A DNA stretch of 64,000 nt from positions 3,770,665 through 3,834,664 of the forward strand of contig FN649758.1 in assembly GCA_000310025.1 (NCBI GenBank), given 5' to 3'. Both the position numbers and the translations under genes were made by a program. Below the pieces are notes generated by a model. That model made no database searches. It worked only from the letters and a program-made list of their open reading frames with translations, and was not told where the DNA came from. Position 1 is the stretch's first letter. Every line of letters starts with the position of its first letter. Positions 9,059-44,603 of this stretch are shown here, one piece after another. This DNA is from Ectocarpus siliculosus. Lineage: Eukaryota > Sar > Phaeophyceae > Ectocarpales > Ectocarpaceae.

Positions 9059-12000
9059 TCAAGATGGACTCTGGGAGGCCGAAGAGCCGCCGCGCGGGCG
9101 TTTCTCTCTGCGAGTGCTGAGGAACAATACCATTTTCATCGATGACCGTCGTCGGTGGGACTGAAGTGTCATTTGTTCATCCTTGCCAAGTTTTTTTGTT
9201 CGGGGGGGGTGGTAGTGAGAGAGGGACATTGCGAAATGGGTCCGGGGGCTCTAGGGCCGGTCAACGGAAGCTAGTAGCGAAGTTTCAACCTCATAGTATC
9301 ATGCCTGGTGCCTTTTCACGTCCCCGTATCGCTCTATGGAATATGCTGATGCAGTTGAACGGCACATGTCGGCGGGGCAAAGGAAGACGAGGCGGGCATA
9401 GAATCAGTGAGCGAGTGAGGCCGGGAGGGGGGAGAGAGCTCTATCTGGGCCCTCACGTCCCATTCAAGACAACAGGAGTGCGCTCGTCTTCTTCCCAATC
9501 GAGCTTACGCTCTCGTAAATGCGTTTTTCCGGAGCCCCCCACACACAGGTAGGATTGCTTGACTTGTCACCCTTCACACCAAACCACGCCCATGATAGCT
9601 CCTTCCGCTACGCGATCCCAAGCGCGCCCACTTCCGTTCGGATCATTGTGCACCAGGGCAACAACAACACCACTGTATCCTTTACTTTATTTCAATGCTG
9701 CTCATTGAGGTGAATCTACACTGATGCGCGCTGGGGATAGTGGGGTGTCATATGGCGGTCATTCTGCTCCGTTCCGTTATTCTGGCGGAAAAAATTGCCT
9801 TCAAACGCGTAAGTACATACATGGTTTGCTGTTGATCTTGGACCCTAATGAAAGAGCGCATGCACCTCTGCAAACGTCGACAACCTCGCACGTGTTGATG
9901 GCACTGACTCACATCTAGAATTGATCGTGGTCGGAGGGTAGGACGTGTTCATCTGTACCTATCTATACCTGGGACATTTGCGGGGGGGGTCGGATGCTTC
10001 ACTCCTAAGCGTTTGCATCGAACCTGCCCGATTGTGGCAGGTACACCCAGTAGGTTCCTCGTTGCGTCACTATAGAGCTGATGACAATTTTGACGGGTAC
10101 GCTCAACCTCCACATTCTGGTCTCTTCGCCGACATAGACCTACACAAAGCCCCGCGTGTCAGTGTGAATCTCGCTCGGCTAGACCGCTACTGCTGCTTGC
10201 TACAGACACAGATCTTCGCCGATAATGGCAATCAGAAATATATGGGTCGCACGATCGTTGAACCGCTGTATCCCGCGACGCGCGCGGTTTGATTCAATCG
10301 TCGACTTTTGTCCAAGGAGCGGGTTCATAGACGCTGTTCAGGTACATGTAGAGGCAGTGGGTCACACCCGACTGCTTTTTAGAGCGGTGAGGAATGGACA
10401 AAATCACGTGCGCCCAAAATCCCTCTCTCGCGCTGGTGGTCCTACGTGCCTTTTACCCCCAAAAACACTCACGCTTCCTTGGAGGCGAGCCGGAGCCAGC
10501 GGCGGTAGGCCTTGAGCCCCTCCGCCTTTCTCCTCCGCTTTCGGTGTGCCTCCTCCGCCTGCTTTGCCTGCTCCACCCTCCTCGCCTTCCTTGCTTCCTT
10601 GCTCTTCTCCTTCGACCAGATGCGGTACCTTGTATTTCGACCACAGAGACACCACGCGACGAGACGGTGTTGTTATCACGGTTGATCTGGAACGGCTATT
10701 GTTACTCGAGGAGCAGAACTCAGGAGGCCTCCTTGTGCATATTTGCCCCCCAAAAGATCTGCCACTGTATACCCATCAATACACACCACGGGGTTTTCTT
10801 CGCAAGATCAGCGGCTGCTACTGTTCGGAGGCTCCGTCCTATTACCCAGCATTGCGTCTGCACGCCTCATGGTGCCGACTCACTGTTGAAGCGCCCGCTC
10901 CCTCTTCTCTTCGGCGTCTTTGTGTCCCCTTCCAAGGAGCAACGCCTCTTCCAGTCCGAACAGTTCTACGGCGAAAGGAACTCCGATCTCTTTCCCTGCG
11001 AGGGGAGAAGACATCTCCGTGTGGGACGCATCGACACCGTCCGCTTCTGCCCCTCCCCCTCTTCCCTCCTTGGCCCTGTTCACCCCCAAGTAGAGCAGGT
11101 GCAAGACATGAAAAGAGCGCGATTGGGTATTAAATAATTCATGGCCGCGATCTCGACGCTGCCAAGTTTCTGGCATCGAAGGATACGCCTCGGTCACCTA
11201 TTTTTGGCCGATGACAGGGAGGGCAGCTCAAATATTCAAATTTCCAACAAATGGACAGTCACATAACGGGACGACCCATTCAATTTCCAACCAGTGGACA
11301 GTCACAGAAGGAGACAGTCAATCAAATTTCAAACGCGGACGTCACAGAATGAGACAACCAACTGTTTGTTCCAACATATGGAAAGTCACATACCGAGGCA
11401 ATGAGAAATGTTTCCATTAAACAGAACCAGAGCCTAACCAACCACGGTCATGAGTGCAAGTCCGATGGAACATCTAGAAGGGATTAAGTGAAGCGTTCCG
11501 GCGACAATGCCGCGATATTGATCTCAAGGGTGTGTTGAGCATGCCGCTGATTCTGATTGCTACCTCCCTGGACCTTTCACGAAAGTGATTCCCCCTGACT
11601 AGCAGCATCTCCTCGTACGTATGGTGTAACAACGACTCCCTCCCGTACAAGTATTCGCTACCGTTGGTGACCGGTACAATAAGATACGGCCCTGATCCCA
11701 GGCACACACCATTTCTTGCGGAGGTCCGCGGCTATGAGAGGGACGCCGGCGAGCTCCCGGGCCCGCGCGGCCGCCGAACCGTCCGCAGTCAGTGAGAAGA
11801 GGACGTCGCCCATCTCGGCGTTGAACGCCCGCTTGGACAGAAGGAGGGACGGCGGCGATGGCGAAGAAGACGTCGCCGGCTTCTGCCGACCTCCTTTTGG
11901 CCGTCCGCCGCTACCGCCTGTGTCCAGCTTTAGCCAGTGAACAAACAGCAGCAGTGAACGCGCGCGGGCAAGCGAAACGAAGGTGTGGGAAGGCAGTCCT

Positions 12001-17187: not shown

Positions 17188-19171
17188 TCACCGTTTCCGC
17201 TCTCGCTCCCTCTCGGCGCGCTCCCACCGAATCCTCTTTCCCCAGGCGGCAAACACCGACAGCGCCGCCGCATCGTCTTCGTCGCCCTCGACCACTCCCC
17301 CCTCACCAGTCGCTCCTCCTCCTCCTCCTCCTCCTCCTCCTTCCCTCTCCTCTTCCGAACCCTCGCTGTCCTCGCACCCTTCCTCCTGACCGGTGGGATT
17401 GCAGCGGAGCCTCCTCCGGCGCTGGTCGCACCTCGCCTGCCTCGACTTGGACTCGCACCGCAGGCGCACGAGGTACCGGCGCAGGTCCCAGGCCGGGATT
17501 TCTGGCTCCCCGTGGCAGCTGTTCCTTTGCGGCGGCGACGACTGCGTGCGCAAAGGTGCTGGTGGTGTCGACCCCCACCGCGTTGTCGGTGACAGCACCG
17601 GGTGCGCTTGTCCGTTTCGCCGGGACGATAAGGATGGCGCTCTCTTCCCACCTCCGCCTTCACCGCGGGCGGCGGTTCGCCCCCGCGCCTCCTGCGGGCG
17701 CCGCCGCCGCCGGTTGCCACCCTTGTCCCGCTGCTGGCGCTGCTGTTGCGGGCGTTGCGGGCTGTTGCGTTGGAGGCTTGCCCGGCTACCGCCGCGGCGG
17801 CTGAGACGGTCGACGCTCCTGGGCTGGCCGCTCTTGGTGCCCATTCTTGAGCCACTGCTGCCGCTGCTGAGGCTGCTGCCTAACCTCGCGCTCCCCCCAC
17901 CCGCGTTGTTGTTGGGTCTTCGCCCTGCACGAGGCCGTCCGGTCCCGTCGTCGCCAATGGCGCTGTCGCTGAAGCGGTGCAAGGGCCCATAGGCACGAGT
18001 TGCTAGCGCAATAGCCTGCGTGGAAAAAAGTTGGAGGACGGTGGTGGGCACGGGAGTAGTGTCGATCGCTACGGCGCATGAGTGGGTGTTGCTGCTTAGG
18101 TCGGAGCACGCCGGGGTCTCACGACAGGGCGCAGGTATTGCGACAGGCGCAGGCACAAGTACCGAGAGGCCAATCAGCGAATCGCACGGAGGGGGGGATG
18201 GTACAGAAAAAGCACCAGCTATCTCAAGAGAGACCAGCGAGGACAGCGTGCTACAACGGTAGACTCTCTCGATCGAAACGAACGGTCTCTTGGAGCCTAG
18301 AGAACGGTCAGTCGAGCGACGAGGCCAAACCACCCACATGCCATGCGAAAATCAAGACCCCGACAAGAACATGCTGCGTCGTAACCACGAAGAATAAGCA
18401 TCTCACCCTAGTCCGGCTGAGGTGGAGGCCGACCTCCGCAAGGCCTTTCCGAAATGCCTCGAGGGGGACTGTGGAAACCCTCAGAGATGCTTCCCGGTCG
18501 GCGAGCGTTGACCCTTGGCTGGAACCAACGACGGGCTGCTTGAGCCCCAAGGACGCCTGACGTGGGCAATAGTAAGGGGGCGGATGGCACCAATATATAT
18601 CCAAGCTTGTGTTCCATGGTACTCGACGTAGCTGTTTTTCGAATATACAGCGTTGTGCCGCTACAATTTCGTCAGAAAACGAACCCTCGTCCCTTGCCCC
18701 CCCGAGGTTCCCATGCCATTTGTTGAGCGCGTCACTTGCGGGGGCGAACATCAGCGTTCAAGCTAAACAAATTCAACTTTTGACTGCCAAAAAACAGCAC
18801 CAACGGCAAAATCCTGCACCGAAATAATCTTGGTGCTCACCAGCACCCGGTCGAATAGATCTGCCTGTTGCACTATCCTTCGCAAGGCGGTCTCATCCGC
18901 CTCCACCTCCGCCTCCACCTCAGCCACCACTCGAGCCTTTGCCGCCGCCCCGCCCCCTCGGTTGTCGTAAACGCTCCCTCCCGGCGCACCCGGGCCTGCT
19001 TTTTCGACGATATCAGCTACCACGTCTTGACCGACGCTTTCCTGGGGATCGCTGTCACGCGGCGGGGGGGGTTCTGGGCATGCCGCCTCTGGAGGCAACA
19101 ATGTTGTTGGGGGGATGCCGCAGAGATCGAGGAGCCTTCCGACGTCTATCACGGAGCAGCCGTTGTTGCCC

Positions 19172-19202
<31 letters not shown>

Positions 19203-22200
19203 AGGCTCCGCTTCTCCCCGAGGTAGCCGACGCTGCCGCAACCGCGGCCTCGATTACCTGTGGCGCTATCGCTGTGTCGATCTCGTGCCGTTCTTCCTCC
19301 GAAAGGCCGGCCTGTTCGATCACGTTGTGTCAGGGCTGGTTGGCAATTCTGTAACGAAAACGATGGCTTCGGTTGTGTTCTTCACACCAAACTTGCGGCA
19401 ATGAAACCCCAACACGTTGACCGCGCACATTGGTCGTCCGTCGTCCAGTGCAGCATGGGCTTGGACTAGACCACTGGCAGAGGGGGTCTGTCTCGGGAGG
19501 TGGCGTGAACCTTTTGCACCCAACACGAGTTAATAATACCAGTAGGACTGCAGGAGGAACAGGGAAAACACAGAGTGCTCATCGAGATTTTTCCCGGCGT
19601 TTTTTTCCCACCCTGGTGGGCGGTCACGGTTACTGACGGTATTTTCCGGCATTTGGGGTGTTGCCGGGTATAGCCGAACATCGAACGCCGCTTTGCAATA
19701 CCGGCGAGTCTGTGTCTGCCCAAAAAAAACGATACCGACGAGTACCCTGAAAACAAAACAGACACACCATCAACACCACCGGTACCGTGGAAACCGTCCT
19801 CCCTTGTCTCATCTCATTTTCTTGAACCTACGGCATGATTTAGCCAAGCCACCAAGGCGTACCTTCAAGCCTTCCGCCAACCCGGCTAGCACGAGCTCGA
19901 ACTGGACCCTCGTCAGCAAGGCGGCTGCTGCAGTGGCAACGGAGCGTGACCGGGGGCGGGGGTTATCAACGGTGGCGCAGCAGCAGCAGCAGCAGCAGCA
20001 GCGGGGTAAATCCGTAGTAGCGAGAGCAACACAAAAAACATTCAAGAACGTCATGGATAACCCATCACCGACAACCCAACAGCAGCACATGGACGGACCT
20101 TTTTCGCCCGCCTGCCCTTCGTCCTCCATCTCTCCGTCGCCACCACCGCCTAGGTCGAACCACTTTCGGAGGTCGATCCCGCGCTGGGTAGACGCGTACA
20201 GCAACACCGCACGCAGGTGCAGCGGCACTTCCGCCCGCCGCACCACACCGCCGCCGCCGTCGCCATTGCCATTGCCAACAGTCACCACGCCCTCTCCTCC
20301 GCCCCCCCGCCTCGTAGCCCCCCGCCCCGCCACCGCGACAGCGGCCGTCACTGCCGTCGCCACCGCTGAGGCCGCCTCTGCCTCCTTAGCCCCAGACGCG
20401 CGGCAGTTCATCATGGGGGCAGGAATAGCCGGATTCCCAATCCGAGAAGGGTTCCAGCCAACCCTGGGCATAGGCTTGTGCGCTGCCGTCCCCGATGTTG
20501 CTGGCTCTGGTGCCGTGGGTGGTTCCGCCGTGCTATCGCCCGCCGCCAGCGGGGCGGGTACCGCCTGGTTTCCCACACGAGAGGCGTTCCAACCAACCCT
20601 CGGCTTAGCCGCCGGGTCCGTCGCTACCCCTGGGGTAGCAGAGGAAGAAGAATGGGGAGGAAGAGCACGAGCGTGTGGGGCGCCGTTGGCCTTCGCTGTG
20701 CTCTCCGGAGTGGCGACGGAGCCGCCGGCGTTGGGGGCGGCAGGGGCTGAAGCGGAAGCGCCGGCGGCGGCAGCTCGCGCCGACCTCGTCGTCGATTTCG
20801 ACGGTCGTGTTGGGTCCCAGCCTATCTTTTGACGCGGTTGCTGTTGCTGCACCTTAGGCTGCTGCTGCGGTTTCGACGCCCGTGTTGGGTCCCAGCCTAT
20901 CTTTTTGCGCGGTTCTTGCTGCTGCACCTTAGGCTGCTGCTGTTGCTGTTGCGCAGACGGTTGCTTCTCTCCTCTCTCCCCGGCTATAGAAGTAGGACGG
21001 AGCAGTGCTTGGTGTCGCCCTTCAACCGGGAGAGTCTCCGTCGGATCACCCCCACTTCCAGCGGCGCCGCTACGCGAGGAACTCCAGCCTACCTTTCCTC
21101 CGCCGGCTTCAAATTCGGCTTCCACTTGTTGCTGCGGCGACGACGGAGCAGCGTCTCCTCCGCCGCCTCCGGCGGCCGCAGGTTTCCCCGCCGTTGTCGC
21201 TACTGCCGCCGCCGCCGTTGCCGTTACTCGAGAGGGGTCCCAGCCTACTTTTCCGACGCTACCGGCATTGTCCCGTTCACTCGCGCCCACGTTTCCGACC
21301 CGTGCCGCTGCTGCCGTTGCTGTCGCCGCTCGAGACGGGTTCCAGCCGATTTTTCCGACGCTACCGGCACCCCCTTCACTCGCGCTCCCCCCCGCCAGGG
21401 TGGAAACGCCTCGAGGAGGGGCAGCACTGCTAGTCTCCTGCCCCGCCTTCCGGGAAGCCGCCGCCGCTGCCGCCTCGGCAACAGCAGTAGGGGGAGAGGA
21501 CCCCGTACCTCCTCCGGCAACGGCGGCGGCGGAGGCGGTGTCGGAAGAGGGGGCTCTCGCAACAGCGCCCGCAGCGTGATGCCCCGCCTGCACGGCAGCC
21601 TCCGCCTCGGTCGCGCTCGTAGCCAAGGAGAAGGCCATCGTTGTCGTCGTTGTCGCCGACGGTCCTTCCGAGGTCTCGCCCGTGCGGCCGCCGGTTCGTT
21701 TGCTGGGGAGGGGCACGGAACCGGGCGCCGTTGCCGGGATGGCCACCTCGGAGTTGTCGTTCAGGGGACGCCAAGGTTCGCCACCTTGTTCCTCTTCCGC
21801 CGGATGGAGGAGGATTGTGGGCGGGGGGGAGGAATGTCGGTGAAAAGGAAGAGCGAGAGTGGAGAACGTTCGAGGTTGTGCCGCAAAAGCGGCCGAATGG
21901 TTTTGAAGCCCGTGTGAAGACGGGAACATTTCAGAGCTTCACCGCAAACGCGGAGGCATGGTCCAAGCACGTGTGAAAGAGGCCGGGTGGCCAAGGGTGG
22001 GTTAGACGCCAGCCAGTTTTGTTCAGGAACGATTTGAGGGTTGCTGTGTGTATCAATAAACGCTTGTGGTGGAAGGGTGTTGCAGAAATTGAGCCCAAGC
22101 TGTTCAGCCCTACTGCCATCGAGCAAAGGGACGGTGCGAGCATCAGGGGACAATAAACACCGTCCATCTAGTCCTGGAAGTTCCTACAACTAGGACAAGG

Positions 22201-25200
22201 ACAGATCAGCAGCAACAACCGACACATAGCAACAACAAACGTCGTCACGGGTGACGCTCACACCTTCGGCGAGGAGGCGCCAGTTGTCGCCGGTCTTAGC
22301 CTCATCGTTGAAGTCGTACACGCCGAACCACAGGTTGGGTGTCATTAGGCCAGCCTCTCGGAGGTGCTGCCACGCCACGCCACGAAGAAGAAGAGGCGAG
22401 AGGTAGGGGAAAGAGGCCGATCGAATTCCGGTCGGGGCGCACGAAGTGATGCACGATTTGTCAATAAACAAAAATCAGTTCCGTCTCGACGACGGGAAAA
22501 AACTTCGGGACAGAAAAACTTTAATATTCCGCGGGACTCTCGAGCTACTGGAGAACACAGGAAGATGTGAAACTACTCGAGAGTACTGTATGCATACGTG
22601 AGGTAAAATTTAGCATCAAGCAATCTCAATACCCGAACGATATCAACACCCCCTTGAAAAATGCAAAAACGTAAAATTCTGGAAAAACTATTGGATCAAC
22701 TCCGTTTGAGGACGCGTTGGCATCAGAGGGGAGTTGAAATGTGTGGCCATTGTCGCTTTATTGGGTGGAAAACTCCTTGATTGAATAGCTCGTAGTTTAT
22801 TTGATAAAGATTGTCCTTTGCCTACATAAATCGGGCGTATCTGCTCACAGAAATAGTGTACACGATATGCTCCGACTTCAAAAAACAAGCCACCCTCGGA
22901 GACCGACGGGGGCACGGAAGGTGGCCTCCTCCTCCCCACGGCGGGCGAGAGCTCCGTCCGACTTGCATGTGAAGACTCCTACAGGAGCGGATATCATCTC
23001 AGACAAAAAATATATATCTTTCCACGGGCACAACGGACTACGTACACTAGGATCGTGGTCCGCCCTTCGATACCCTCTTCGACTCATTCCCTCGTACCCA
23101 CCGTACTTGCCACCCAAGCCCCCCCCCCCCCCCCCCCCCGCTGACTGACTGCACAAAGCACGGAAAACACTAAGAACTTCTCAATCAAGAGGAGCCAAAA
23201 CACTGGAACTATGTACTTGAAGTACACCCGATGCCTGCCACGCACACACCGAAAAAACACGAAACAAAAAAAACGAATGACCCCTAATACTGACCATAGC
23301 ACCCGTTTGCCGCTAATTTACTCTTATAGCATGCATGGTAACTACCGGCGTGTTTTCTGCCTCTATGCCGTGCGCTCCGGAGACTTGTGCCGTCGCTGCT
23401 GTGGAGTGGCGTCATCGAAGTCCGAACGAACGCCAACACCTTTCGTGCGAGCCTACAAAAAACGACATGTATATGTCCCTTCACGTCCCGAAAAACCAAA
23501 ATAGCAGCAGGAATGAGATGACATACTGCTGTAATACTGTTGTGTTTCCTACACTCAAATTTGCAACCAAGCCAAATGCGTCTAAATTTCGTAGCAGATG
23601 GTAGACCCGAACAGGGTTACCAAGCAGAGCGCATCCATCCGAAGTCGCCACAATGAGGTAGGATGTTTATCTGAGCTATTTAGCCTACGTGTGTATGCAG
23701 TCTAAGGAGGAAAAAAAAATCTAGTCCGCTCATCCGATATACGCAGATACGCTGTGTAAGGTCGTCTTACAAAAAAAGACTTACGGAGAGTAATCGACAA
23801 AAATGACAACAGCAAAGCTTTGACAAGGACTGGGACCGACGATCGCTTTGGTATGGGCGGCCGTCTACGGACAGCAAGGGACGCCAAGAAAAAAACACAA
23901 GAGACACTAAAAATTATCACGAATAATCTATATATCATTCCAGGGTGTGATATGCGATGCACCAAAAAAATCCCTACCCCTTCACGCACTTAAGTGTGCA
24001 AATCGACGTGTGCTAATTTACAAAGGCAAGTGCTCACTGGACTCTCGAGCGCGAAGCAAGGCGAAAAAAAAACAAGGTGACCAAAAAAAGCAAACTTGCC
24101 GCTTCGCCTCTGCTGCTGGATGCATCTGCTCTTTGGTCGTCGTCGTCGTCGTTTACGAGCTGAGCCAGGCACAGGCAAATAAAACGCCTAGCCGACAGCT
24201 GATGGGCAGAGTGCGAGCTCTGCAAGGCCCGATAAGCGTTGTATTCGTCGCTGTTGCTTCCGTCGCCGCCATAGCCATGACGCTAGCCAGCGCAAGGCGG
24301 TCCTGGGCTTGCTACTATTACTGCCTAGCAGCAGAGATGAGGTCCTGACCCTGTTATCGTTGCTGTGGTTGTGGTGGCGGTGGCGGCGGCGGCGGTTGTT
24401 GTCGTTGCTGCTGCTGCTGCTGCGGCTGCTGCTGCTGCAGCTGCGGCTGCGCAGCGGCGCGCGTGGATGAGGACCGGTTAAGGGTGCGCAGCTGTTGCAG
24501 CGGCGGTGGGAGGTGTTCAGGATTGCAAACCTTCTCGTTTGCAAAGACAGGGCGCGCGAGGTGAAAAACAGCAAGCAACCGGGGCAACGAAGGGGGGGGC
24601 GGGGGGGGGGGGGGTACTCTCATGTTTTGCATGCCTTAGCGGTTAGACCATTGACCACGCGTCCTCGAGAGGACGGAGCATTGTTCCCACAGGATCGATC
24701 ACCGATGGCCAATCGTTCCTTCCTAATTTGCCAAAGGTGGCTCAAAAATGTCTTCCCTAGTCTGTCTATCCTAAAGATATCCCTTCCCGCCTTTTCAAAC
24801 CACTTCCTACTCCCCAGTACAGCTACCGTNNNNNNNNNNNNNNNNNNNNNNNNNNNNNNNNNNNNNNNNNNNNNNNNNNNNNNNNNNNNNNNNNNNNNNN
24901 NNNNNNNNNNNNNNNNNNNNNNNNNNNNNCCCCCCCCCCCCCCCCCCCGCCGCCCCCCTTCCCGCCGTGCGAAGCCCCCAGCCCCCAAACAACCAACCAT
25001 AATATACACCGCAAGCAGGAAAAATATGCTGGTACACATGAACAGCCCCATCGCTTTCCCCTCCCTACTCCAACGACGGCTCACCTCGGCGTGTCCAACG
25101 TACGCCCCGTTGAAGGGCGCGAACGTCATCCCGTGGGAGGTCTCGATGATGGGCTCGGTCTTGCAGTACAGCCTGAACTCGCAGTCCTCGCAGTCGCGGG

Positions 25201-28200
25201 TCCTGAGCTGCTTGCAAGCCACCGTGAAGACGCAGCCGGTGCAGTTGCGGACGAACACCGAGTCCACGCAGGCGGCGATGAACACCCTGTGTTGCAGGAG
25301 AAGAACCAACCACGGTAAATACACGGCTAAAAGTTTAAAACCGGACGTAGGTTACGCAGGCAGTTTTGCGTGCTACGACGTGCAGACCAGCAGGGCTGAA
25401 CCTGCATGACCTGTGCATTTGAAGCGTTGCTGGCAACTCGAGCAACCGAAAAAAAAATGCCGAAGGTGGATGAGGACTGCTAGTAGTGCTGTGGTAGATG
25501 CTTCGTGTTGCCGGCGAACGGCCGCTTGCTCGTGGTGATTTCAGCACGATGATAACACCTTTGTCTTTGGCGGTGTTCAGATTGTGCTGGGGTGTCAACC
25601 GCGCTTGTTGCAGGTGTTCAAATACTCAAGATCGTTTCAGACGTGGATACAATGATGAGAAAAACCATAGGATTGTTCGTAATTGGTGCCAAGAAGGGAC
25701 ACGCGCATACCCCAAAAGCTCGAAGCAAGACAGAGAGAGAAGAAAATAGGGATGTTTGTGTTTCACCTGCCACCCGACAAAGGTCGACCTTCAGAAACAG
25801 GAACGCAGAACACACGAAATTAGTAAACGCATTCAGGCACGCAAAAAAGTTGTGTACCCGCTGAGAGCGCTGCTTGACGAGGACTGCCGGGCACAGCACC
25901 GTTGATAGCACCTGATGTATCTCCCACGAAATATTATGTACGAAGAATTTCCATCTTCCCTCGACGGGGTTGGGGGCGTCTGTACCTGAACGACAGGCTT
26001 TCGGGGGACTTTGGGAGTGCGTTGCTGGAGCCACCGAGAGAGGCACCAACACGGGGTTCTATTGGTCTTGGTGGGATCTAGCGTTGAGAAGCCAAGGAGG
26101 AGGTATCTTGTCCTCCGTGTGGTGCCGGTGGCTGAGCCCAAATTTCTTTTACGCCATTTGTGCTTTTTCTATGAACTCATCTTCTTGTGAATATTCGATA
26201 TGAGTGGGCCGGCACTGCACCCTCATGTATACCGTACATCGGCCCTTGTTATGCGCATGCAAGGATATAGGTTTGTGCGGTGGGTGAAAATTCAGCGGCC
26301 CGGAACCGGCGCGGCCGCGGCAATGTCGTCCCTCGACGTACGCCTGGAACCGTACAACACGGTTTGGCTATGTACAACCCCTATGGTGGTGTATTGCTAC
26401 TTCTGAGAAACCTGCCGTGCACCAGGGGTACGGCGGCAGTGCAGCTTCAAGGACAGAAAAACAAGCTGGGGTGGACTAATGATCTTGACGTCCCGTTGTG
26501 CATGATAATATCGAGTACAGCCTGCTAGTCTGCGTGTGGCGTCTTGAGCGAGCCATGACATGCAGCGAGTACTCCTGATCATTAAATAATGTGTGGTCAT
26601 GTGCCTGTGCCTTTAACATAAGCATCACCCCAATAGACTTATGCCCCTTTCATTGCCGTTAAAAACGGGGAGCGCATCTAGAGGTCATGATCCGGGGTCC
26701 CGCCACGAGGGGTCACGGGGGAGGTAAGGCTATTCTCGGGATTGAAGACTGAAACGGAGGGAGAGGAAGATAAATGCACGCGTCAAATAATATGTTCACT
26801 TTTGCTCATGTTCGATTTAGCTGCGTCCGTTAGTTGTTGCTGGTCCCGTCATCCTCTTTGTCTTCACTGCTCTCCTCACTATTTCTGGATAGTTCTCGTC
26901 ATCGACACGTTTTCAACCTCTTTTCCGTTACACTTGAAATCCTACCCAATTGACATTGGTAGGATTTGGTCAACCATCTTCCCATGGCTGTCAAGGACGT
27001 CGTCACGGGTATATACTGAAGTGGAAACAATCGAGCCCGAAGTTAATAAAAAACGTTTCCAGCGTGTTTTTCGGGAACAGCCTATAGCCGAAGGAAGAGC
27101 GACTCATCGTCATCAACAATACCGTTCGTCTTCGCAGGCCAAAGGACTTGAGGAACAGCGGTTACGGTCGAACGATTGGGCGACTCCGCCAAGAACACAA
27201 TACGTCGAAAAAGCGGCGGCGAGGAGGGTGGAGCTACGTACGGTTTGAACGTTCCCTCGTGGTGGTTATCCTTGCTGGCTGCTCATTCGTCGAGTGCAGG
27301 TCCTGGTGTTTGGGGGCGGCTGTGTTACTCTGCACAGTGGGCGGTGACGACATCTGTGACAATCGATTGAGTGGATAAGTATTGCACTCGAGGACTCCTC
27401 CCAATCCACCAGACGCAATGGTCGAGGAAACGGACCGTACATATTGTGGGTTTGGCCATCCCCCAGGTGTACGTGTGCGGTATCGAAGACGAGGAACGTG
27501 TTTGTACGTGTGTGTGGGTGTGTTTTGTTTTTCGTCCCATCGATCATTCCGCCTCAGTAACCGGGGATACACAGGACGGAGGAGGAAGGTACACGCAGGA
27601 GGATTTTTTTTTTTTGGCCATTTCGTCACGCCGTGCGTGCCTTCAGTTTTCAAACGCGGGAAGGACTTGGCAGTAGTAGTGCCTTCGGTCTTTTCTGTGG
27701 GTACTTCCGAGTTGCTAATAACCTTTTTCCCGGGAGAGTTCCGAACCCGCGACCTCGGACCTTACAAGGTCGCCAACTACACCACTCAAGCCACAGTTAG
27801 TTGTGTTACCGTGATCCACATTCGTGAACAACTATGGAGCGGTCTGCGTCCAATTTGGCGGTGCGGCGACTATGCAGATGAATCGATCTTATTGCGGAGA
27901 ATCCCGCCATAGCCAGGATCCTAGAATCGAGCGAATACCGCCTTAGCAGGGCTTCCAAAGCAACAAGGCGGAAACTGCAGTGCTTGGGGGAAATGTGCGC
28001 GTTACGATCACAGTATAACCGTGCATATCCAGCGCAGCAGGATGTGCGATTGATTGCGGAGGGACGAACTGTGACGACGGCACGCAGAATTCAGATGCTA
28101 CATGAACATTGTGACTGCTGTGCCGCAGGGTGGACGTGGAGAGAAGGAAAGGTAGAAAGGGTGCTACTAATGTAGTGTGGTGGCCTGCTATGCTCAGTTT

Positions 28201-29859
28201 TTTGTTTCTCGCCGTGCGCGAAACTCGCCACCCCCCCCATAAACGAAACAAGGGAGAAGGGATACTGTTGGGCTAGTCGCTGACAACCCATAAGAGAGCA
28301 CCCCGGCATGGTACCGGGGCGCGACGAGACTGCCTAGGGCAGAGCCCAGTACCATACACGAGGTGCTGGTAGATTTCTAGGTTTTTTTTTTTTCTCTTTT
28401 CCCGGGTTCTTTTCGCACACAAAATATGCTGTAGGTGGGCTGGGCCGGGCGGCGGAAAACCTGATGACACTCCACTCCCGGTACGAGGGTATAGTAGATT
28501 CGTGAGCGATGTCATCCTTGTTGACTTTGTAGGAATAATGCGCCTGTGGTGTGTTGAATTGAGACTCATCATTCAGGTTGATTGGTGGCTTGTCCTCCAA
28601 AACTCAACAATAAGTAGCTACATTAAATTACGTCCGTACCCTAGCTTTGTCCTTTTTCGTCGTCTGGGAGCAATAAGAATAAACTCATGCATTGTGCTTG
28701 TCGTCCCTCTTACAGGAAGTGTCATTTTCGTATGTTCTGCCCAGTTCTGTGGAGACTCTGCTTGACTGAACCAGGAAGTTGAGAAACCTGTAGTTTTAAC
28801 GAGTGGTGGGGCTTGTTGTGGGTCCTTTTTCTCTTCGCGCCTCTTTTTGGGTTAGCTTTTGGGAAAAATGGAAACTCTATTCTGCGGAGTCTAAAAGATC
28901 AGGAGGTACTGAATAGGCAGACCGGTGATGGAATGACGGCAACAACCACATCGAACAACAGCATCAACAAAAACAACAACAACCAGAAAAAACATCATCA
29001 ACAACAACAACAACCACAACAACGCACGCCCTTGCAAGCAAAATAACGTACGACTTTTCGCTGAGGTTGGTTGCACTTTGTTCGAGTGGTACGTGCTGCT
29101 ATGCATAATGTACTTGCTGAACCGCACCCGGGCCGAAACAATTTTTGGAGGTCTCGGAGAGTTCGTCTTACAGCACCGTCTCACTGAACAAGGCGGCGAC
29201 CTCCTTTTATTCCGGGATACCAATACCCTGAATCGTACGGTCCCGCCGTAGTTGGGGGGATCTCTACTGCCTTTTATAGAGGGACCCCACCGCCTTATTG
29301 CGGGACCATTCGTGTTTTCAACCTTTGTCGGATCTTTCTTTCAAGTCCCCGTCTCTTTTGTGCTACTGCAAATGTCTATTGGGTGAGTTGTACAACTTGA
29401 GAGCGCATGGCTCGTACCTGCAATCAGAGAGCTCATCCACTTGGACTGCTTCTGAGCGATCCAGCAACGCTACCTCGCAGCGGCGGAGAGAGGTGAGGTC
29501 GAACGGCTGACCATCGATGTCACCGGGAAGCTTGCGCAAGATCTCGCCCTCCCTGGACGCAAGAGTCGACAAGATTGCCGAGCCACGGGGCAAGCGCGAA
29601 CAGGGAGATCAAGGACCAACAAGGAGATTAAGAATGATCGACCTTGTTCAATCTATGTGGCGAGGCAACTTTGGGCGAGTGCGAGGCTCGAGGTGTGTGC
29701 GCGGCGGCCAGAGGTATCTTGCTGTTGTGGTAAACGGGTGCCGATCAAGACCCCGCACCCGGAAGTATCTCACCTGTCCTTAAAAGTGTACTGCGTGAGG
29801 AAGAGATACTTGCGATACTCGGCGCGATCGGTGAACTCAGTGCCGTCGGGTGCCCTCAT
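17188..29859 (-). CDS. RP2/TBCC-domain protein with long C-terminal tail bearing seven GW octapeptides (9 exons, about 1251 aa)
   Basis: Exons (minus): 29774-29859, 29418-29552, 25085-25286, 22264-22366, 20069-21784, 19863-19927, 18841-19311, 18407-18556 and 17188-18015; phases sum to 1252 codons with stop. Residues about 8-175 are a TBCC/C-CAP domain of the RP2 type: L-P-G-D-I-D-G-Q-P-F, D-C-x-V-F-I, V-R-N-C, C-K-Q-L-R-T-R-D-C and P-I-I-E follow in the known order, then an A-G-L...N-W-R-L-L strand/helix. Arg102 and Glu122 match human RP2 Arg118 (the ARL3 arginine finger) and Glu138, with equal spacing. The rest is Ala/Gly/Ser/Gln-rich, with seven [KR][IV]GW[DNS] octapeptides between residues about 320 and 623, a Ser run, and an acidic, Gly-rich C-terminus ending in Arg-rich helix. 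RP2 proteins act at basal bodies and membranes in ciliary cargo traffic. The first four exons are very secure. Linking of the later exons rests on matching phases; two genes are possible. No N-terminal Gly/Cys acylation site is seen from this ATG, and frames stay open upstream, so the start may be incomplete. Confidence 0.75.
19928..20068 (-). other. Probable small intron over a CAG tract (otherwise poly-Cys)
   Basis: Read through, this stretch would add eight consecutive Cys from a (CAG)n tract at about 19979-20004, unlike anything else in the protein. A donor G|GTGATG and acceptor CACTGCAG bound a 141-bp interval, and removing it keeps the frame. If it is not removed, the frame simply continues to a stop at 19809, which would end the protein early. 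Confidence 0.5.
20442..21353 (-). repeat. Seven-copy [KR][IV]GW[DNS][PSA][ST]R octapeptide array
   Basis: Within the large exon of the RP2-like gene the octapeptides KIGWNPSR, KVGWDPSR, KVGWSSSR, KIGWDPTR (twice), RVGWNASR and RVGWNPSR occur at nucleotide positions from 21353 down to 20442. Gly-Trp and the last Arg are invariant. Spacers are 17 to 69 residues, low-complexity and unlike each other except around the two KIGWDPTR copies, which share a Q-Q-Q-P-K-V-Q-Q-Q stretch and look like a recent duplication. Conservation of the octapeptide against diverged linkers suggests selection on a short linear motif. Confidence 0.85.
24601..24745 (+). mobile_element. tRNA-related SINE-like repeat, copy 1
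   Basis: A G-run and GTACTC...CATG head are followed by GCATGCC, a box-A-like TAGCGGTTAGACC, ATTGACC, GGACGGAGCA and a tail GGCCAATCGTTCCTTCC...TTTGCCAAAGGTGGC. Copies with the same block order lie at 32818-32960 (plus) and about 60470-60595 (minus). It sits in intron 4 of the RP2-like gene, just before an assembly gap. Confidence 0.6.
24830..24929. other. Assembly gap (100 N)
   Basis: Exactly 100 N, a placeholder of unknown true length, followed by a C-run. It lies inside intron 4 of the RP2-like gene, so no coding sequence is obviously lost. Confidence 0.99.
27728..27795 (-). other. Degenerate tRNA-like sequence
   Basis: On the minus strand a box-A-like TGGTGTAGTTGG (27773-27784) and a box-B-like GGGTTCGGAACTC (27736-27748) have normal tRNA spacing, with an anticodon-arm-like GACCTTGTAAGGTC between them. 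The T-stem and acceptor stem do not pair, so this is a tRNA relic or SINE head, not a working tRNA gene. It lies in the 4.1-kb intron 2 of the RP2-like gene. Confidence 0.5.
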
Positions 29860-33823: not shown

Positions 33824-33915
<92 letters not shown>

Positions 33916-36474: not shown

Positions 36475-38485
36475 TCACCAGAATCTCCACCATCGTCGTC
36501 TGGGCGTCCCCCCCTCCTCCTCAACCGCCGGCTTCTGCGACGGGATGGTCTTCGACCCCCAACCTGGTGGTCGCTTGTTCTCGGCCAACGGGGCGATTGT
36601 TGTTGTCGTTGTCGTTGTCGCCGCCGGTGCCGTCTGAGAGGAGGACGTGCCGGCAGGCTTGGAGATGAAGCCGAACTCCTCGATGTCCTTGGTCGTGGCG
36701 TGCCGACGCTTGGCGCTGTAGTGGGACCCTTTCCCCTTGTTGAGGAGGTCTCGCATGCGCTCCTCCTTTTTAAGGCGCCGGGAGTGTACGCAAAGGTTTC
36801 AATCACGAAAATAAGTCGCATAATTGGGCTTGCTTGTTCGAAACGGTTCTGGGATCGGAGAGAAGTCAACCAACTCGCGGGGGAAAACAAGCGCAAAAAG
36901 CGACCATACCCTCTCTGCACAGGACCAACATCTGTCATGCGGCGGTTGCTTCGACGTCGTCGGCGTTCGAGTTGAACTCTAAACCGCGAAGGGTCAACTC
37001 CGAGGAGTTGGTGACGAGGGGAGTCACCCTCCTTGGAGTGAAATCGTCGGGTCATCAGGACCCCACCCCACGGCCTTCCAATACAAGCCGAAATCAAAAA
37101 CCATAGTCTCGCCCTAGCCCAGCGCCGGCGAGACTAATGGTGTGATTCTTAAGGAGCAAGCATGTCTACATGTTGAATTGTTGTAGTCTGAGCAAGCAGC
37201 AGCGGCGCCGCCATCCGCGCCTGTGACGTTGAGGCCTAATAGTTTCTCACCTCTCTGGGGTCGTTGTTGTTGACCCGTTTGAAGAATTCCTTCATTCGGT
37301 CGTCCACTTCATGGCGGCCACGAACCACCTATCGCCCAAAAGAAACAGTGAACTCAAAATAGTCGCCGACTCTTGTGCCTTGTGCGTTTTCCTTCTTGAC
37401 TGCTGAAATATATATGAAAAAAACAGAGATGCCTTCGTCGAATGACTTTGCTCTAGTCCCCTCCCGAATCCCTGATCTGTCGGTTCCCGGAACAACTTCC
37501 TACCCCACAGGAAAAACGCCCTGCAAGCAAGGCAATATTTGGCTTGTCACTCTACGTCGCTTTAACCATCCCATAAAATCGTTGCATCGTGTTGGAAAAA
37601 TGGCCCCGGCAATAATGGATCCCATCACCCTAATCGCCTCGTCTGCGTGTCTGCATTATAGCGGGGTGGTGTGGGGAGAGGGGGGGGGGGGGGGGTGCGA
37701 ACTCCTTCCGGCTTGCAAGTTCGGCTTCCGCGGTAACTGAACTCTTCACCGCGACCCGCGCAAAGTCTGCTTCTCAGCCAATTACCATGATCACGCACAC
37801 CGTCATTGCTTTCGAGAAACACTCCCCCCCTGTCGCAACAAACGCTTCACTGCTCGAACTGTCCAAACAAATGCCTGCAGCTAGCGCCAGAACCTATGAA
37901 CCTCTACTATTGGCCGAGGGTGGGGTTCTTACAGCAGTAGTTCCTAGTGATATGGTACAATGACCGCTATACAGGTTTTAGTGTAGAGCTTAACCGCGCT
38001 CACCCACGGTGCTCAAGTTCTTATATCTTGCATTCTTCTACAATGACCGCTCTATAGGTTTTAGTGTAGAGGTTCTTAACCGCGCTCACCAACGGTGCTC
38101 AAGTTCTTATATTTTGCATTTTTCGAGACTCAATTTCTTGGCTGCCCGGTCCGTAAGTGCGGGCGCTATAATAGCTGTATACGTGACTCCGCGCCAAAAG
38201 CGCGGCCCAACCACGAAAGCCCCCTCGCACAAACGCAGCAACCGAGTGGCCGGCCGGCCATGCGCGCGCCCCGAAGATTGGTGGTAACCCTAAGCCTACA
38301 AGCCAGCGGCATCCACGAAGCGAAAAACTCACGTCGGGAAACTCCTTGCCAATGTTGCTGTTGAGCTCGTCTTCGGAAGGCTTGTCCAAGGAAAAGTAGT
38401 ACACGATGCCGCCGACGAGAAACAGCGATGCGGGCGACACCAATGCCGCGGGCACCCTGAATCGTGGCACTCTCGGCTCCGGCAT
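36475..38485 (-). CDS. Small single-pass membrane protein of unknown function (3 exons, 173 aa)
   Basis: Exons (minus) 38333-38485, 37251-37328 and 36475-36765 give 51, 26 and 97 codons, all phase 0. An Arg-containing N-terminus is followed by one hydrophobic segment (residues about 13-31: V-P-A-A-L-V...G-G-I-V-Y-Y-F), then a charged soluble part with F-F-K-R-V-N-N-N-D-P-R, a basic K-G-K-G-S-H-Y-S-A-K-R-R stretch and E-E-F-G-F. The tail is Thr/Pro-rich and ends in R-R-R-W-W-R-F-W. Short size with an N-terminal anchor preceded by Arg fits an organelle inner-membrane or ER protein, but this is inference and no family is recognised. Donors are GTGAGT and GTGAGA. The exon 3 acceptor (TTAAAAAG) has a poor pyrimidine tract and is the weakest point. 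Confidence 0.65.
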
Positions 38486-42352: not shown

Positions 42353-44603
42353 ATGGGCATCGTCCTGAGCCGAGTCTTCCAGGCCCTGTTCGGGTCGAAG
42401 GAAGTCCGCATCCTCATCCTCGGTCTGGACAACGCGGGAAAGACGACGATCCTGTACCGCCTGCAGAACGAGGCCGACGACAACATCCAGACCATCCCGA
42501 CGATCGGCTTCAACGTCGAGACGCTACAGTACAAGAATATTAAGTTTCAGGTGTGTGTGTGTGTGTTTGTGAGGTATGCTAGGCCTTGCAGAGGCCCCTG
42601 CTGCTGGTTTTGCTGCTGCCTCTCTGCTTCATGGCGGGCAATGTTCTTCTCCTTGGTGGGCTTTTTTTCCTTGTTTTCCTCCCGTTTCGTGTCGTATCGT
42701 GTCTTTCTGTCTCTCTCGCTTCTACGGCACACGTTTGGTTTTGGGCGTTTCGAGTCGTTGTGTGTGACGGGGTTTAGCTGGTGAGTGTCGTTGCCCCCCT
42801 TCACACCGGCACCAAGTATCACAGAAGGGCACGCATGTTCTGGACCTAGGAGTGTCACGTCTTGTGTCTACCCCAAGCCGATGCCTGTCTTTTCCGAGTC
42901 TTGGCGTTATCAGAAGGACCCGACCTAACGCAACTGCTGTTGCACGGCTACAACAACCACCACAATGCACAACGATCAACGATTTCGCTTTTCTTCCATG
43001 GGGCACGGTAGCGCCGCCAGCTTGTCGAGGACGGTGTGGGATCTGGGTGGTACACAGGCACCCACCGGCCATGTCGCCCCCTGTCCGCACGACCACCCAC
43101 CCCGAAACCTTGTTGCCCGGGCTCCTCTCGTACCCACCCCTGTCTTCTGCACGAATCACGGCGTAGGTGTGGGATCTGGGCGGACAAACAAGCATTCGGC
43201 CTTACTGGAGATGCTACTACCCAAACACCGACGCGATCGTGTTCGTTGTGGACAGCTCGGACCGAGAGCGGATGGCCATCGCGAAGCAGGAGCTCATGGC
43301 CATGCTAGAGGTGAGAAATAGCATCACTTCATGACAGGATAGTGTTGGGTACGTGCTCAGCTACGTGCATGTGAGTGTCTGTGTGCCTTTTGAGCACGTA
43401 TTTGGATGTTTTACCCACCCTTTTTTCAGAAGCCGCACCGACTCCGAAAACAAATTGCCGCCACAGCCTTACGTTGCCATCCGGCCAAGTCCAAGAACCT
43501 CAGCAGTAGTTAGCGCCGCTACCCCGTCCCGATTGTGTGAATGTGTTATTTTGGACCCAGATATTGTTCTCAAGAGTATTCTGTTGCGTCTTTAGAGCCT
43601 GGCCGAGAGAGGGGAGGTGATGGTGGAAAGCCTTCCATTTTTGGGAGAGGAACGGTTGCGGACCTTGACGCGTGCGTGCGATATCTCTAGAATAGAGATG
43701 ATGCCCTCATGCTGTCTCCTTGACACTGGTGGATGAGCTAGGAGCAGCGGGGCACGGGGGCGGGAAATCGATCGTGATCTATAGCAGTTGTGCGTGCTCA
43801 ATTTTGCAGGCCGCTTCACCGAGTTAACCCCTGCTTGAACCGCTCCTTGAGTACGGGGGGGGGGGGCGTCGGATGGTACAACATTATGATCCGCGGTGGT
43901 ACCCCTGGATCATCCCCTCCAAGATCCCGACTCTTGCCTTCTTAGTGTCTGAATCCCGTTGTGACGCATTGTATTGGGCCCATCTTCTTGTTTCGAACAT
44001 GTTTGTGTGCCATGGAAGCCTTGTCTCCACGTTCGCCCACAACCCCGTAAAGGTCTCGGTGCTTCTCCTCGACCATTAACCGGGGGCTGACCATCTCCTG
44101 CCCGGTGTTCGGTGCGTTCTCGATCTTTGGCAGGAGGAGGAATTGAAGGACGCAATATTGTTGGTGTTTGCCAACAAGCAGGACCAGCCGGGATCCCTCA
44201 CCTCGACGGAGGTACAGCTGTGCGCAGCCAATAATGAAGAACGAGAGAATTAACACTCTTTGAGGGCAGACCCTCGGCTCTCGATTGTCCTGATCAATTG
44301 GTCTTAGCCCAGGATGTCTTCTTACAAGACCAACATCTTAAAATTGTTCTTCAACTTTGTTTTATTTTCTGAGCATCAAGATCGTAACTTCCGCGTTCTG
44401 AAGCGGTGGCGCGTTCAGCAACAGCCCTTTGACCACATCGCGTCAATCTCGTAACGTATACCCCTTAATTCGCATGACACCGCTCTGGCGTGGATTAGGT
44501 GTCGGAAGCACTGGGGCTGCCAGACATTCGCAACCGGCAATGGTCGATCCAAGAGGCGTCGGCACTTAAGGGGAAGGGGCTGTTCGAGGGCTTTGACTGG
44601 TGA
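42353..44603 (+). CDS. ARL1: ADP-ribosylation-factor-like GTPase ARL1 (4 or 5 exons)
   Basis: Exons 42353-42550, 43167-43310, 44134-44211 and 44499-44599/44603. Met-Gly at the N-terminus fits N-myristoylation. G1 is G24-L-D-N-A-G-K-T, switch I T50 in I-P-T-I-G-F-N, G3 W68-D-L-G-G-Q, G4 N128-K-Q-D, and S-A-L in the G5 position. The run [18 protein letters not shown] is the ARL1 hallmark. ARL1 acts at the trans-Golgi, recruiting GRIP-domain golgins and other effectors. Compared with yeast and animal ARL1 there are two extra residues between L-Q and T-I-P before switch I. The 3' end is ambiguous: after ...G-F-D the bases TGGTGAGC read either as Trp then stop (174 aa, end 44603) or as a GTGAGC donor. 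Spliced to 46274-46319 the tail would be W-L-L-L...R, 188 aa. ARL1 normally has about seven to nine residues after this Trp. Confidence 0.95.

Follow-up and report, generated by a model that had tools for sequence, protein, structure and literature searches.

In the window, the whole 64,000-nucleotide stretch of Ectocarpus siliculosus DNA that was analysed, the minus strand carries exons for a predicted TBCC domain, the GTPase-activating fold for ARL GTPases or tubulin, and downstream of them an exon encoding seven copies of a tryptophan-containing octapeptide. The exons of the proposed gene, with the basis for each, are as follows.

29774-29859, minus strand: exon 1, MRAPDGTEFTDRAEYRKYLFLTQYTFKD, with the putative start (open frame, GT donor and a phase that fits exon 2)
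29418-29552, minus strand: exon 2, first part of the TBCC domain (GT-AG and phase; within the Pfam TBCC match)
25085-25286, minus strand: exon 3, TBCC core, including the counterpart of human RP2 Arg118 in the alignment (XRP2 structure match and Pfam TBCC)
22264-22366, minus strand: exon 4, end of the TBCC domain (XRP2 alignment; Pfam TBCC to the profile end, 120/120)
20147-21784, minus strand: exon 5, whose 545 complete codons include the array with its linkers (open frame; phase-1 junction with exon 4)
19863-19927, minus strand: possible exon 6, tentative (GT-AG and phase only)
18766-19311, minus strand: possible exon 7, tentative, ending at the TAG at 18763-18765 (only an open frame, an AG acceptor and a fitting phase; Pfam gives no match)

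The introns measure, in model order, 221, 4131, 2718, 479, 219 and 551 nt, and all six are GT-AG, a regularity that is partly by construction as the sites were picked by eye for phase. Judged by homology, the TBCC domain predicted upstream of the array exon is complete, the joined exons 1-4 matching Pfam TBCC (2.1e-35) over profile positions 1-120 of 120. The best solved structures for this part are human XRP2 (2.5e-18) and then tubulin cofactor C (6.5e-12), a ranking by which it appears closer to RP2 than to cofactor C, and the claim of a sequence-only reading that the array goes with an RP2/TBCC protein has support in this RP2-type TBCC domain, which lies just upstream on the same strand and with which the array exon is in phase. 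In the XRP2 alignment the residues at Gln116, Arg118, Glu138 and Phe177 are kept and the Gln115 position is Lys; the aligned Gln116, Glu138 and Phe177 positions are ones that we take to be residues that matter. PMC2568879 gives Arg118 of RP2 as the proposed arginine finger.

With human RP2 the protein shares the TBCC domain and these kept positions, and it differs in several respects. The model begins MRAP at its putative start codon and so has no MG start as an N-terminal acylation signal, which is described as a vertebrate feature in PMC3879569, and neither exon 5 nor the tentative C-terminal exons have a Pfam match to the NDK-like C-terminal domain, also a vertebrate feature. Here there is Lys at the Gln115 position and a 545-codon low-complexity octapeptide exon instead. 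As the NDK-like domain was not detected, the protein is classed only as an RP2-like TBCC protein. A parallel in architecture is TbRP2 of Trypanosoma brucei, which likewise has a TBCC domain without acyl anchor or NDK-like domain and a lineage-specific targeting part (PMC3879569). That part is an N-terminal TOF-LisH, for which the predicted protein has no match in Pfam, whereas here the extra part follows the TBCC domain and consists of a repeated Trp octapeptide. According to PMC3879569, most flagellated eukaryotes have RP2-like proteins, whose targeting parts vary by lineage, and the acyl anchor of human RP2 and the TOF-LisH of trypanosome RP2 are cases of such lineage-specific targeting (PMC3879569 and PMC2568879). 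Because the human and trypanosome proteins use different parts for it, a third targeting solution in this lineage is plausible. Comparison of the array exon and the TBCC part with viral contigs, and of the TBCC part with prokaryotic genome contigs, confirmed no relative, an absence that says little.

The end of exon 4 and the start of exon 5, the latter behind an AG, are both in phase 1, the junction reading ...NWRLLAEGGEPWRPLND...; a second acceptor a few bases upstream of the exon 5 start is, by eye, also phase-compatible. On these splice-site features the array exon likely belongs to the TBCC gene, and domain and array would then stand in one protein. Alternatively, the exon could be a separate gene for a disordered motif protein downstream of a short RP2-like gene, with the TBCC domain unrelated to the array. 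The TBCC profile is, after all, already complete at exon 4, the frame is open upstream of the exon 5 acceptor, with ATGs in the same frame 192 and 95 residues ahead of copy 1, and purines directly precede that acceptor. A two-gene arrangement is nevertheless unlikely given the shared strand, the gap of 479 nt between exons 4 and 5 with its GT-AG ends and matching phase, and, with the reservation already made about how they were chosen, the GT-AG ends of the whole set of introns.

The octapeptides encoded in exon 5, located by pattern search, are these.

21330-21353, minus strand: octapeptide copy 1, KIGWNPSR
21228-21251, minus strand: octapeptide copy 2, KVGWDPSR
21072-21095, minus strand: octapeptide copy 3, KVGWSSSR
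20880-20903, minus strand: octapeptide copy 4, KIGWDPTR, inside a 75-bp tandem repeat
20805-20828, minus strand: octapeptide copy 5, KIGWDPTR, inside the same 75-bp tandem repeat
20577-20600, minus strand: octapeptide copy 6, RVGWNASR
20442-20465, minus strand: octapeptide copy 7, RVGWNPSR

When the window is translated in six frames, the strict pattern [KR][IV]GW[DNS][PSA][ST]R matches seven times, always on the minus strand in a single frame and at exactly the 20442-21353 where seven copies had been reported earlier; none of the frames has a match elsewhere in the window. Shuffling the residues of the 545-residue exon 5 translation gave no match in 19,999 of 20,000 trials and one match in the remaining trial, and the expected number is 5.7e-6. 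The pattern was chosen post hoc, and as a control 8-mers were grouped by similarity whatever their sequence; the largest group has seven members in the exon 5 translation and at most four in 200 shuffles. The seven octapeptides are far above chance. Their Gly-Trp and final Arg are, as had been noticed at the outset, invariant in all seven, and variation elsewhere is conservative, with K/R, I/V, mostly D/N (one S) and S/T exchanges, position 6 being P, A or S; seven of the nine Trp residues of exon 5 lie within octapeptides. Fixed G, W and R together with conservative K/R, I/V and S/T exchange among copies points to chemical character as the target of selection. All seven copies have Ser or Thr at position 7, before the final Arg, and the octapeptides could be read mainly as kinase targets at that residue, forming a graded switch instead of docking, but this leaves the invariant Gly-Trp unexplained and is very improbable.

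Over 20147-21784 the array frame has no stop, against 14 and 14 in the other minus frames and 14, 3 and 2 in the plus frames, and a fully open forward frame did not occur in any of 1000 first-order Markov sequences with the dinucleotide make-up of exon 5. The copy pairs 1/2, 4/5 and 6/7 were aligned as DNA, with the protein translation left out of the alignment. Pooled, they differ at 10, 4 and 20 sites in codon positions 1, 2 and 3 (third-position excess, p 0.002), the separate counts being 3/2/6 for pair 1/2, 4/0/4 for pair 4/5, which by itself has no third-position excess, and 3/2/10 for pair 6/7. All aligned columns are in frame, and the sole two gaps, both in pair 1/2, are of 3 nt. Because the pooled differences favour third positions and the gaps keep the frame, the array sequence has evolved as protein. 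Within the motif, the 21 copy pairs pooled give pS 0.667 and pN 0.161 in the true frame, pS/pN of 0.341/0.273 and 0.134/0.317 in the shifted sense frames and of 0.273/0.291, 0.500/0.183 and 0.139/0.344 in the antisense frames; the copies were selected by amino-acid match, which biases motif pN low, and for this reason the coding argument leans on the DNA-aligned pairs. Third-position GC counts against a coding and docking reading, being 0.66 in exon 5, with no excess, against 0.96 in exon 3; in the first 70 codons of exon 5 it is 0.78-0.80. The array frame is both open and evolving as protein. That the exon might not be translated in this frame had been named at the outset as a finding that would tell against the array, and the codon-position pattern and in-frame gaps favour translation, as far as can be told from sequence.

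Past the motif, DNA alignment scores exceed the maximum of 200 shuffles for pairs 1/2 (96 versus 40), 4/5 (90 versus 28) and 6/7 (56 versus 32), and do not for the other pairs tried, 2/3 (32 versus 34), 3/4 (30 versus 30) and 1/6 (24 versus 28). The adjacent pairs 1/2, 4/5 and 6/7 are recognisable tandem duplicates, copies 4 and 5 also being reported by Tandem Repeats Finder as two copies of a 75-bp repeat at 20796-20942. The earlier description of linkers that do not align thus applies to 2/3, 3/4 and 1/6 and not to these three, and the single recently duplicated adjacent pair that had been noted is a real duplication but one of three. Over all copies the mean pairwise DNA identity is 0.71 in the motif and 0.31 and 0.36 in the 36-nt flanks, and since identity falls at the motif edges, the three pairs arose by later duplication of units that were older and had diverged. 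In pair 6/7 both copies have [VI]GN[QP]A[VI]PAP after the motif (pS 0.78, pN 0.21); this shared extension, in which change is mostly synonymous, perhaps marks a longer version of the motif (20434-20465 and 20569-20600, minus strand).

Such a history also suits a coding minisatellite, in which repeated duplication within a GC-rich, low-complexity exon is tolerated and largely neutral and the motif is kept only because of the youth of the copies. The three tandem pairs, one of them with a 75-bp unit, and the low-complexity surroundings agree with it, as does the upstream flank of pair 1/2, which looks unconstrained (pS 0.44, pN 0.48). The three recent pairs, moreover, differ at 9 of 72 motif sites and 25 of 127 flank sites (Fisher p 0.24), a lack of significant contrast that speaks against docking as well as for neutrality. 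The flanks of distant copies, however, are at background identity, yet G, W and R persist while third positions have changed, which counts against a minisatellite because young neutral copies would share flanks; the third-position excess in the tandem pairs is a further point against it. On balance neutral duplication is a rather unlikely account of the array.

Successive copies are separated by linkers of 26, 44, 56, 17, 68 and 37 residues; A, P, G, Q, S and T together make up 181 of the 248. Uneven low-complexity linkers of this kind are compatible with flexible tethers but not with a repeat fold in fixed register, and the uneven spacing would favour independent docking peptides over a solenoid or a lattice-registered binder. 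The reading that we prefer, though its prospects are about evenly balanced, takes the array for a multivalent short linear motif lying in disordered sequence, and for a docking or clustering module, specific to this lineage, with which an RP2-like GTPase-activating protein is equipped. It starts from what is observed of the repeats, their conservation among copies, their open frame evolving as protein and the adjoining TBCC domain. Each octapeptide combines a buried-type Trp with basic residues at both ends and a conserved Ser/Thr, and would be a single weak docking site, and seven of them on flexible, unequal linkers would give avidity by which the TBCC domain is held at a partner or clusters it. 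The octapeptides would accordingly have to bind something, and their binding would set the site at which the GTPase-activating domain acts; the basal body or vesicles as the cellular site are guesses. The multivalent motif put forward in the sequence-only reading fares unevenly, the motif and linker pattern among copies being as expected and the recent pairs lacking a significant motif/flank contrast.

No match was found when the array, including a profile of its seven copies, was compared with Pfam profiles and solved structures, and therefore no partner can be named. Multivalent arrays of Trp linear motifs are known in the GW/Argonaute hooks and the kinesin W-acidic motifs, which have in common with this array several short Trp peptides in disordered sequence. 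Among these Trp linear motifs we know of no counterpart to an octapeptide that carries P[ST]R and is basic at both ends. In the full text of openly licensed papers, four hexapeptide forms of the motif retrieved only unrelated-looking insect TRPML work, and the Trp linear-motif literature there gave no lead to this octapeptide. Openly licensed papers also yielded none on RP2/TBCC with brown algae or EF-hand; one paper retrieved with Ectocarpus has RP2 only in a reference, and in PMC4736243 both RP2 and brown algae are confined to references. Trp linear-motif arrays and TBCC proteins are each known, and their combination was not found in these searches of openly licensed papers.

A fuller and doubtful version of the docking reading is that an RP2-type GTPase-activating protein has here lost acyl and TOF-LisH anchoring and is concentrated at its site by the seven Trp octapeptides instead. 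On this version tandem duplication would still be altering their number, which would tune the place and the strength of switching off in the GTPase cycle of an ARL or of tubulin. A repeated docking motif, if true, would be a further and evolvable solution to RP2 targeting, and the array, if it docks, a simple test bed for how linear-motif copy number relates to the localisation of a GTPase regulator.

The exon 5 translation continues for 98 residues past the last octapeptide, and with further exons possible the array is probably in the middle of the predicted protein rather than at its extreme tail, where it had earlier been placed. The region after the array has no family or solved-structure match in Pfam or among solved structures. 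Three stretches in it, RGIDLRKWFDLG..., RVQFELVLAGL... and VPLEAFRKGLAEVGLHLS..., have an EF-hand resemblance that neither collection supports, their weak matches being at chance level (e.g. HTH_38, 0.023). Behind the proposed gene an Arg/Ser-rich frame is open on the minus strand at 17191-18038, with a possible acceptor near 18017 and no Pfam match, and it may be an additional exon or a different gene.

Elsewhere in the window a spliced ARF-family GTPase gene lies on the plus strand at 42353-44599, its five joined pieces encoding 174 residues. Its best match is ARL1 (yeast ARL1 structure 1moz, 4.7e-71), and its first exon matches Pfam Arf at 2.8e-21. Some 12 kb separate it from the TBCC gene, which is on the opposite strand, and since ARL1 is, to our knowledge, not the usual RP2 substrate, the linkage is probably chance. 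Simple repeats in the window include a 43-bp tandem unit in 3.0 copies at 11236-11361, an 86-bp tandem unit in 2.0 copies with 90% matches at 37956-38124, and a perfect CT dinucleotide run of 43 units at 33827-33912.
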